A stretch of DNA of 45,929 nucleotides from an uncultured Victivallaceae bacterium. Its GTDB lineage: Bacteria > Verrucomicrobiota > Lentisphaeria > Victivallales > Victivallaceae. Made by a program: the position numbers and the translations under genes. The DNA is taken from assembly GCA_944389925.1 (NCBI GenBank), contig CALXOD010000048.1, positions 1-45,929 of the forward strand. Direction: 5' to 3'. Under the pieces are notes generated by a model. It did not search any database, was not told the origin of the DNA, and saw only the letters and a list, made by a program, of their open reading frames with translations. Numbering within the stretch: the first letter of the stretch is position 1; each line of letters starts with the position of its first letter. This document shows positions 25,843-28,418 of the stretch, one piece after another.

Positions 25843-25918
25843 TGGTGCGCCCACAAGGACTCGAACCTTGGACCCGATGATTAAGAGTCATCTGCTCTAC
25901 CAACTGAGCTATGAGCGC
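25843..25918 (-). tRNA. tRNA-Lys (anticodon CTT), CCA encoded
   Basis: A full 76-nt cloverleaf on the minus strand: acceptor GCGCTCA with TGGGCGC (one G-T pair), D stem GCTC/GAGC, anticodon stem GATGA/TCATC with loop CTCTTAA (anticodon CTT), T stem CAAGG/CCTTG with loop TTCGAGT, discriminator A and encoded CCA. Seven Ts follow the CCA (25842-25836 on this strand) and may end transcription. Confidence 0.96.
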
Positions 25919-26026: not shown

Positions 26027-26980
26027 CTAGAGATTTTCAAACAAATCCCCTTGAATCGGTTGTTCCGACTTCGGCATGGAAGCGGCTGTTGCGGCGAATA
26101 ACGGCAACTCATCGTTTTCCGGAGAAATTCTTTCCGATCGCGGGAGCTGCCGGAGCAGACTGTGCAGTTCCATGCGTTCGCAAATACCGGCGATTTTCTC
26201 CCAGTCCGGTGACTGGCGCGCGCAGGTCTCCGCGACCGGCAACAGACGTGTCGGCAGGTCGCTGCGCAGTCGGATCAGTTTACGGTTGCGTTGCAGCAGT
26301 TCAGTGGATTCCAGCAATCGGGCACGCTGCCGCTGATTGGGGATTTTCTCCGGTGAGGCCAGCAATTCATCGAGAGAGGCGATATGCAGCCACTCCGCCG
26401 CGGTTTTCGGGCCGACGCCCGGAACACCGGGAATGTTATCCGCCGCGTCTCCCAGCAGGGCAAGGTAATCTACGATCGCTGCAGGGGGAACGGAAAATTT
26501 TTTCAGCACGCCAGCAATATCCCGGCGCTCCCAGCCGGCACCGTTTTTCCCCGGAAGCAGGAGTGATACTCGTTGATCCACCAGCTGCGCCAGGTCTTTG
26601 TCAGAGCTGATGATTTGCACGGGTTCCCTGGTCGCCTGCGCCAGGGCGGCGATCAGATCGTCCGCTTCATATTCCGGTTCCTCCAGCAGCGGCCATCCGA
26701 AAGCGGCAGCCAGTTCCCGGAGCACGGGAACCTGTTGTTTCAGATCTTCGGGGGTCGGCGGACGGTTAGCTTTGTAATCAGCATTGAGCTCCAATCGGAA
26801 ATGGACACGCCCGCAGTCGAAAACCATTGCCCCCCGTTCCCCCGGGAAATCGTGCTGCAGCTTCAGCAGCAACCGGGTGAAAGGCAACAGCGCATTGGTG
26901 GGCTCTCCCCGGGAATTATTCAGGTGGCGGACCGCATGATAACAGCGGAAAATCTGTGAGTAGGCATCAATCAGAATCAT
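26027..26980 (-). CDS. Stand-alone 5'-3' exonuclease (FEN/Pol I N-domain family)
   Basis: 317 residues from ATG at 26980. The protein equals the N-terminal domain of DNA polymerase I without the polymerase. Motifs: M-I-L-I-D-A-Y-S near the start (metal Asp), Y-E-A-D-D-L-I-A-A-L-A, I-I-S-S-D-K-D-L-A-Q-L-V and the helix-hairpin-helix region L-L-G-D-A-A-D-N-I-P-G-V-P-G-V-G-P-K-T-A. Such enzymes remove RNA primers or flaps. The last about 40 residues are a tail ending Q-G-D-L-F-E-N-L, somewhat like a clamp-binding peptide (inference only). The start codon is 33 nt downstream of the small-RNA terminator at 27013, so the gene is either transcribed from elsewhere or by readthrough. AGGAG lies 12 nt upstream, further than usual. 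Confidence 0.88.
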   Translation of the reverse strand: MILIDAYSQIFRCYHAVRHLNNSRGEPTNALLPFTRLLLKLQHDFPGERGAMVFDCGRVHFRLELNADYKANRPPTPEDLKQQVPVLRELAAAFGWPLLEEPEYEADDLIAALAQATREPVQIISSDKDLAQLVDQRVSLLLPGKNGAGWERRDIAGVLKKFSVPPAAIVDYLALLGDAADNIPGVPGVGPKTAAEWLHIASLDELLASPEKIPNQRQRARLLESTELLQRNRKLIRLRSDLPTRLLPVAETCARQSPDWEKIAGICERMELHSLLRQLPRSERISPENDELPLFAATAASMPKSEQPIQGDLFENL

Positions 26981-27012: not shown

Positions 27013-27111
27013 AAAAAAGGTTCAGCGGTGGGGCCTCTTGAGAACTTAGAGGAGTAATTATGAAGAGGAGAAAAATGCGTATAGGATCTCTTGAAACTTC
27101 ACCGCTGAACC
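27013..27111 (-). ncRNA. Candidate small RNA, about 99 nt, unknown family
   Basis: On the minus strand GGTTCAGCGGTG (27111-27100) pairs perfectly with CACCGCTGAACC (27030-27019), followed by TTTTTT (27018-27013), which closes the RNA as an intrinsic terminator. The 69-nt interior has two C/U-rich segments, CTCCTCTTC (27070-27062) and ACTCCTCTAA (27055-27046), complementary to AGGAG-type ribosome sites. It also has two copies of CAAGAG (27093-27088 and 27040-27035) that can pair with them. A promoter with correct spacing puts +1 at about 27111, the first base of the stem. No SRP-RNA, 6S or tmRNA consensus is visible. The alternative is a 5' attenuator of the exonuclease gene. Confidence 0.65.
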
Positions 27112-27118
27112 AACATTT

Positions 27119-27166
27119 ACTATAGCACGGTCTGAATGGATTGAAAAGTTTTTTTTTAAAAAAAAA
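27119..27166 (-). promoter_or_regulatory. Strong promoter with UP element for the small RNA
   Basis: On the minus strand: T9/A9 tract (27166-27149) just upstream, TTTTCA (27147-27142), a 17-nt spacer ending in TGC (extended -10), TATAGT (27124-27119), then 7 nt to the RNA 5' end. The A/T block occupies the usual UP-element position. Confidence 0.65.
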
Positions 27167-27267
27167 GAATATTTTTGAGTTTCCCGGGAAGAAATCTGTT
27201 TTTCCATGGGGACGTGCGGATCTGAAAACGATTCCGGTGCAGGGAGCGCCTGTCTTATTGCCAGTAG

Positions 27268-27306
27268 AAAAAAAACGGATACCGCTGTTCACGGCATCCG
27301 TTTTTT
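27268..27306 (-). terminator. Intrinsic terminator of the Gfo/Idh gene
   Basis: CGGATGCCG/CGGTATCCG arms (one C/A mismatch) flanked by A6 and T8 on the minus strand, 36 nt after the oxidoreductase stop. The A-tract before and T-tract after make it potentially bidirectional. Confidence 0.8.
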
Positions 27307-27341: not shown

Positions 27342-28418
27342 TTATTCTGCGTTGCGCGGCAGCGGATTCTGCTTGTGAGCTTCTTCCATGACGTAAACCT
27401 GTTTGCGTACTTCCTCGTGCTTGATGATGGGTTCCGCACCGTTGACCAGGACATCGTACAGATTGTTGTACAAAGCGTGAACCAGACCGGAAAATCCGGT
27501 GGCGTTGCTGTTGTTATCAGTGTAAGTCCAGGTTTCTTCGTGCCAGGAGAGCTGTTCCGAGCAGTACTGGCGCTGATTGCTCCACGGTTTCCAGAATTCA
27601 TGCTTCGGCGCTTCCTCCGGCTTGAAGTATTTCCATTTCAAACCGTTCGGGCCGCCGGTCAGACCGCCGCGGGTGGCGCTGATATTGTACATTTCTCCCT
27701 GCGGATAAGCCTGGAAGGAGCTGACGATTACTTCGATATTCGGCTTCCCGGGGCCGTAGAGCGTGACGGATGCGTAGTTTTCCGCGTCGCCGCCCAGTCC
27801 CCAGTGATGGGCATACATCCGGGCGAACACTTGCGGATATCCTTCGCCAAACAGAACCACTGCCTGGTCAACCGGGTGCGGCCCGGTGTTGAAGAGATTG
27901 CCGGCGCATTCCTTCTGCAGCGTCTGCCAGTCCCAGCGGCGGGCGAATCCGCTCCAGTTCGACCGGATGCTGACGATATCGCCGAGAACACCGGACCGGA
28001 TGATTTCCTGCAATTTGATGAAGAACGGGTAAAAGCGGGAGTTCTGGAACGGGTAGAATACGACATTCGCTTCTCGGGCGGCAGCCGTCAGACGGTCGAA
28101 ATCAGCGACACAGGTGGCGGATGGTTTTTCACTGAGTACGTTGCGGCCTTTTTTCAGGGCAGCGAGAGAGGCTTCCACGTGGAAACGGCTCGGCGTGGCA
28201 TTGACGAAGAGGTCGATGTCCGCCTTGTCCAGCAGCTCCTGATAGTCGTTGTAGACGGCACAGCCGAACTCATTGACGGCGTCCTGACGCCGTTCGGGAA
28301 GTTGGTCTGCAACGGCGACGATTTGAAATTGTTCCGGTTTGTGTTTGAGGCAATTTGCGTGAATGCCGTATCCGCTGCGGCCGAATCCGGCGATGCCGAC
28401 TCTGATGACTTTGCTCAT
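27342..28418 (-). CDS. Gfo/Idh/MocA family oxidoreductase
   Basis: 358 residues. The N-terminal Rossmann fold has V-G-I-A-G-F-G-R-S-G-Y-G near residue 8. The family motif is L-S-E-K-P-S-A (about residues 94-100), and the C-terminal domain has N-T-G-P-H-P-V-D-Q-A around residue 180 with the usual catalytic-site His. These enzymes oxidise or reduce sugars, inositols and amino-sugars with NAD(P); the substrate is not evident. The promoter is the best consensus in the window (TTGACA-17-TATTAT) with a perfect LacI-type palindrome just after the start of transcription, which suggests induction by a sugar. A terminator follows, so it is monocistronic. Confidence 0.85.
   Translation of the reverse strand: MSKVIRVGIAGFGRSGYGIHANCLKHKPEQFQIVAVADQLPERRQDAVNEFGCAVYNDYQELLDKADIDLFVNATPSRFHVEASLAALKKGRNVLSEKPSATCVADFDRLTAAAREANVVFYPFQNSRFYPFFIKLQEIIRSGVLGDIVSIRSNWSGFARRWDWQTLQKECAGNLFNTGPHPVDQAVVLFGEGYPQVFARMYAHHWGLGGDAENYASVTLYGPGKPNIEVIVSSFQAYPQGEMYNISATRGGLTGGPNGLKWKYFKPEEAPKHEFWKPWSNQRQYCSEQLSWHEETWTYTDNNSNATGFSGLVHALYNNLYDVLVNGAEPIIKHEEVRKQVYVMEEAHKQNPLPRNAE

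Follow-up and report, generated by a model that had tools for sequence, protein, structure and literature searches.

A stretch of about 100 nt on the minus strand of an uncultured Victivallaceae genome raises the question of whether it encodes an RNA of its own and what such an RNA might regulate. The window analyzed is the whole 45,929-nt stretch of DNA that contains it. An earlier note had read the element as a complete small-RNA gene, and direct reading of the minus strand reproduced its promoter, perfect 12-bp stem, 69-nt interior, U6 tract and coordinates exactly (Table 1). The stem lies 7 to 8 nt from the −10 element on this strand, the interior between its arms contains an inner helix and an open apical loop with two copies of CUCCUC, and the two C/U-rich segments singled out in the note, CTCCTCTTC and ACTCCTCTAA, are both found on the minus strand. 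Folding of 101 nt yielded an energy of −31.3 kcal/mol versus a mean of −15.8 kcal/mol for shuffled sequences (z of −5.7), and none of the 200 shuffles equaled it.

Table 1. Features of the RNA gene and of its 3′ neighbor in the window.
Feature	Position	Strand	Basis
Small RNA gene, ~99 nt, one long hairpin doubling as its own terminator	27013..27111	-	Fold, alignment, covariation, covariance model
A9/T9 tract 5′ of the −35 element, UP-element position	27149..27166	-	Sequence reading
Sigma-70-type promoter, TTTTCA-17-TATAGT with TGC extension	27119..27147	-	Sequence; promoter scores of homologues
−35 element, TTTTCA	27147-27142	-	Sequence reading
Extended −10 element, TGC-TATAGT	27127-27119	-	Sequence reading; 17-nt spacer to −35
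5′ arm of basal stem, GGTTCAGCGGTG	27100..27111	-	Fast-changing letters, pairing kept (covariation)
3′ arm of basal stem, CACCGCTGAACC	27019..27030	-	Sequence, fold, covariation
U6 of intrinsic terminator	27013..27018	-	Sequence reading
Motif 1, UUCUCCUCUUCA, putative anti-Shine-Dalgarno seed in apical loop	27061..27072	-	Alignment A1 and diverged copies
Motif 2, ACUCCUC, putative second anti-Shine-Dalgarno seed	27049..27055	-	Alignment A1 and diverged copies
Stand-alone 5′-3′ exonuclease, DNA polymerase I N-terminal type, directly 3′ of the RNA	26027..26980	-	PF02739 and PF01367

Comparison with relatives shows that this design exceeds chance, as the whole layout is kept in 36 distinct homologues, with a conserved loop and a covarying stem. 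Promoter-like sites matching at least 9 of 12 consensus positions precede 83% of these homologues versus 22% of shuffles, and nearly all of them have a run of U after the stem; the exact A9/T9 tract is not general among relatives. In most species the stem comprises 20 to 30 bp whose sequence evolves fast while pairing is kept: 8 out of 8 consensus pairs changed on both sides, 53 double-change cells were counted for 18.5 expected, and the signal was lost on sliding the partner. With a promoter and an intrinsic terminator of its own, as judged from sequence features, and no match in Rfam, the element is, as had been proposed, a complete small-RNA gene outside the known families. At the gathering threshold, Rfam 15 returned a tRNA only from the window and no family for the RNA, and the permissive search (E ≤ 10) gave two chance matches only, far under threshold.

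The homology search that the earlier note had called for among Lentisphaerota revealed an RNA conserved across Victivallaceae. BLAST against 60 relatives recovered a strongly conserved core from many Victivallaceae genomes, and when 84,980 species genomes were scanned with a pattern, matches came from Lentisphaerota/Victivallales, including Victivallis vadensis DSM 14823 and strain zth2. Pattern matches in non-Lentisphaerota genomes, like two in viruses, lack the stem and the promoter and were rejected as chance; the phage, plasmid and viral collections gave no real match to the RNA. A covariance model built from 36 distinct copies detected the RNA in 52 of the 78 Victivallaceae genomes, V. 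vadensis among them, a few at weak scores. Outside this family but within the class, it gave two marginal matches only (G108:C63:2653-2746 and G054:C105:955-1049, E about 5e-4). A search 5′ of the exonuclease gene in 29 genomes, most of them without a match, yielded one very diverged copy (G065, L162) and otherwise none. Most genomes carry a single copy. The RNA is present twice in G016 and in G005; a second copy was also noted in G022, and at L060, where the two copies stand at positions 237 and 5801, some 5.5 kb from each other; their RNA body is the same and the sequence upstream of it differs. The element is thus a real gene and defines a conserved, previously undescribed RNA family.

The part of the RNA that changes least is the loop. 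In the alignment GCAAUUUCUCCUCUUCAUAAUUACUCCUC is nearly constant and up to 30 nt are near-invariant in most members, an invariance that partly reflects selection of the material, since many alignment rows were found with a pattern taken from this same loop. The diverged copies recovered by the covariance model without the loop pattern retain both UUCUCCUCUUCA and ACUCCUC in slightly altered form, about 6 to 13 nt apart, and in the very diverged copy of G065 the CUCC-type cores alone remain. Both the alignment and these copies show the two CUCCUC-type motifs as the conserved part, a point that the earlier note had put up for checking. Because diverged copies shrink to motif 1 and motif 2 with a variable spacer, the loop would fit two separate anti-Shine-Dalgarno seeds. 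Such a conserved, single-stranded seed, predicted to be complementary to ribosome sites, is a feature expected of trans-acting anti-Shine-Dalgarno small RNAs, and pairing of the motifs in trans with AGGAG-type ribosome sites, raised in the same note, appears possible. The standard spacer also contains CAU, so that motif 2 and the spacer mirror GAGGAG-UAAUU-AUG (a Shine-Dalgarno sequence, 5 nt and AUG) and may mask the start codon along with the ribosome site; diverged copies no longer have CAU.

Two further proposals of the earlier note, whose interpretation was partly supported overall, fared less well. It had pointed to CAAGAG copies as internal partners of the C/U-rich segments. These copies are indeed present in the window species, but they lie within the stem arms there and are not conserved among relatives, which have swapped them for unrelated letters while the loop is unchanged. 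The proposed switch between self-pairing and pairing with messages is therefore unsupported, its partners being unconserved stem sequence. Ribosome titration is improbable as well, since the motif and the 3′ tail of 16S rRNA share one sense, so that the motif, like the tail, can pair with messages and not with the anti-Shine-Dalgarno of the ribosome.

We then considered known kinds of RNA. Hfq (PF17209) was found in none of the 37 Victivallales genomes searched, while control genomes gave a match, and an Hfq-dependent small RNA was accordingly rejected. The RNA was also rejected as a 6S RNA since it has no RF00013 match and its loop is apical rather than an internal bubble between two stems; no RF00013 match was obtained from the window genome and 36 relatives while controls were positive, although a diverged 6S RNA is possible. 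A close functional parallel may be the αr14 family (NfeR1 and its homologues, the ‘cuckoo’ RNAs of rhizobia), in which an ultraconserved anti-Shine-Dalgarno motif occupies unpaired regions of hairpins with differing stems (PMC10746234). The likeness extends to pairing with translation initiation regions through several functionally redundant motifs (PMC10746234), but αr14 RNAs of alphaproteobacteria have three hairpins, each with CCUCCUCCC, and the window RNA, which has no Rfam match, has a single hairpin with two CUCCUC in one loop; membership in αr14 was rejected. LhrC of Listeria, which regulates lapB without Hfq, RsaE and other UCCC-motif small RNAs of low-GC bacteria likewise place redundant C/U-rich loop seeds over Shine-Dalgarno sequences, yet LhrC-type RNAs have a CUCCC/UCCC motif with seeds distributed among two loops and a linker, are multicopy and belong to another phylum (PMC4132741). 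The csRNAs of Streptococcus (CiaRH regulon; 87-151 nt) resemble the window RNA in complementarity to ribosome site and AUG together, but occur as five sibling copies under CiaR control in another phylum (PMC4507080). Acido-Lenti-1 (RF01687), a Lentisphaerae RNA motif, comes from the same phylum (PMC2864571), and the window RNA does not match it. Since architecture and motif differ and an Rfam match is absent, the RNA stands outside αr14, the LhrC type and the csRNAs. To our knowledge, no csRNA has tandem CUCCUC in a hairpin loop. The RNA thus belongs to none of the families compared, and we view it as a new family that would be a variant of a known functional kind, the trans-acting anti-Shine-Dalgarno small RNAs.

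If the loop acts on messages, their ribosome sites should carry its complement. The exact complement of the whole loop, sought as a single target in 60 relatives and in ten genomes, returned RNA genes only. The complement of motif 1, GAAGAGGAG, located 3 to 9 nt before ATG in the ten genomes, matched true gene starts that, with identities assigned by Pfam, included the thioredoxin reductase gene trxB (in four Victivallis), peroxiredoxin, superoxide reductase, glutaredoxin, methionine sulfoxide reductase, glucose-6-phosphate dehydrogenase and 6-phosphogluconate dehydrogenase, a redox theme that was spotted post hoc in a list also holding unrelated genes. In the window species the matches included a protein with a NifU domain and a small cysteine protein that has no match in Pfam. 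Starts of Orn/Lys/Arg decarboxylase type in two genera, L185 (G034, by Pfam) and L230 (G020), have GAAGAGGAG ribosome sites, so that this gene may be another target common to both genera. Among 279 V. vadensis genes, the loop is predicted to pair most stably (−26 kcal/mol) with L289 (G026 C2, near 65476), presumably a Mur ligase gene, which its protein start resembles by eye.

Superoxide reductase and rubrerythrin were evaluated with a criterion fixed beforehand, namely AGAGGAG or pairing at −17.5 kcal/mol or below, which superoxide reductase passed and rubrerythrin failed. In the first 16 RNA-positive genomes, the superoxide-reductase ribosome site contains AGAGGAG in 5, any GAGGAG in 11 and pairs at ≤ −17.5 kcal/mol in 7, whereas the respective backgrounds are about 1%, 3-4% and 2%. 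A second set gave GAGGAG in 5 of 9 RNA-positive versus 1 of 21 RNA-negative genomes. Pooled, this wider form, which was chosen on reading the result, occurs in 16 of 25 RNA-positive versus 1 of 21 RNA-negative genomes (Fisher p of 3e-5), counts in which genomes of one family are non-independent observations and G065 and G019 were scored RNA-positive on diverged copies. The association holds within the family (16/25 versus 0/10, p of 5e-4) and by genus (7/11 versus 1/18, p of 0.001), for a GAGGAG background of 19 out of 604 genes in three genera. Rubrerythrin, the functional-neighbor control, gave 1 of 25 and was rejected as a target. In RNA-positive genomes the superoxide-reductase site is predicted to pair more strongly with the loop (p of 0.014), while pairing to the 16S tail, calculated with a general tail sequence rather than those of these genomes, does not differ between the groups (p of 0.41); scrambled loops of the same composition matched or exceeded the group difference for the loop in 19 out of 300 cases. 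These results make a good but not conclusive case for superoxide reductase as a predicted target. Of 8 Victivallis, 7 have AGAGGAG at trxB even though their spacers have diverged (background of 3 out of 279 V. vadensis genes), and no such complementarity was found in the other genera. Because neither the superoxide-reductase nor the trxB ribosome site matches in the window species, its target set must differ.

The neighborhood of the RNA suggests another reading, that it is a cis-acting leader or attenuator of the exonuclease gene, which is the immediate 3′ neighbor on the same strand in 29 of some 37 loci (as the second gene in two of them), the genes on the 5′ side varying by genus. We find this very unlikely: the RNA and the exonuclease are far apart or on different contigs in genera g2, g5 and g7, G016 and G005 hold two RNA copies, an intrinsic terminator separates RNA and exonuclease, and ribosome sites of the exonuclease show no special complementarity. 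Since several genera have the RNA elsewhere, the link is not obligatory and the RNA is its own gene. Also in this region of the window, a strong inverted repeat flanked by A and T runs (27267-27306) lies between the RNA promoter and a GFO/IDH/MocA-type oxidoreductase gene (27342-28418, minus strand), of which it is by its looks the terminator, and the sole tRNA of the window, tRNA-Lys(CTT) (25843-25918, minus strand), lies 3′ of the exonuclease gene. A gene for a small protein on the opposite strand is even harder to credit and can practically be dismissed. The reverse complement of the loop does read as an ideal translation start (AGAGGAG-TAATT-ATG-AAG-AGG-AGA), but the run after this start differs between genera by single bases that shift the frame, no conserved frame was seen, the C-termini are unrelated, ATG is lost in diverged copies, and promoter and terminator are on the RNA strand.

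The remaining alternatives concern what the loop binds. It could be a decoy for an RNA-binding protein rather than a partner of messages, and a near-invariant loop of up to 30 nt in most members does exceed the need of two short seeds. This interpretation is improbable given that diverged members keep two C/U motifs only, with variable spacing, and that message complementarity follows the presence of the RNA. The same trans-acting anti-Shine-Dalgarno RNA might instead act broadly on many messages that are not related to one another and have no particular link to oxidative-stress genes, a reading consistent with the sufficiency of about 8 nt of complementarity, with target sets that vary by genus and with match lists that include transporters, decarboxylases (G034, G020), and murein and protease genes. 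We consider such a broad regulator rather unlikely, though clearly less so than the protein decoy, because complementarity in superoxide reductase follows RNA presence over several genera and that in rubrerythrin does not.

We favor, as the probable explanation, a trans-acting, Hfq-independent small RNA whose anti-Shine-Dalgarno seeds block translation, with superoxide reductase and trxB as the best-supported targets. Its own promoter would produce an RNA of about 100 nt folding into a single hairpin, of 20 to 30 bp in most species, whose base together with the U-tract would also serve as terminator and whose apical loop of 25 to 40 nt would expose both seeds. Either seed could then pair with messages having a GAGGAG or GAAGAGGAG ribosome site and prevent initiation of translation, motif 2 and the CAU of the spacer covering the start codon as well. 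Targets would be superoxide reductase (desulfoferrodoxin) in several genera and thioredoxin reductase in Victivallis, with peroxiredoxin, glutaredoxin, methionine sulfoxide reductase and glucose-6-phosphate dehydrogenase as further candidates. What the computation shows is the gene, its structure, the conserved loop and the complementarity of the targets, which co-occurs with the RNA. Regulation of messages by base pairing is suggested by these co-occurrence and complementarity statistics, and we infer that the RNA is expressed, binds and represses its targets and has a physiological role. A bolder view is that of a lineage-specific, Hfq-independent master small RNA for the oxidative-stress defense of anaerobes, which would control the translation of superoxide reductase, thioredoxin reductase, peroxiredoxin and enzymes supplying NADPH, and whose target sites would co-evolve with the loop across genera; we offer it tentatively and with some doubt.

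Our literature search found no small regulatory RNA from this phylum. Because of this and of the lack of Hfq in these genomes, V. vadensis would provide a defined and cultivable system in which to study how a hairpin-loop RNA may control translation without Hfq, and target ribosome sites that co-occur with the RNA may offer a worked case of co-evolution between a small RNA and its targets. Victivallaceae are mostly anaerobes, in which the RNA may set the level of oxidative-stress defense, and its likely targets would bear on how these bacteria survive exposure to oxygen.
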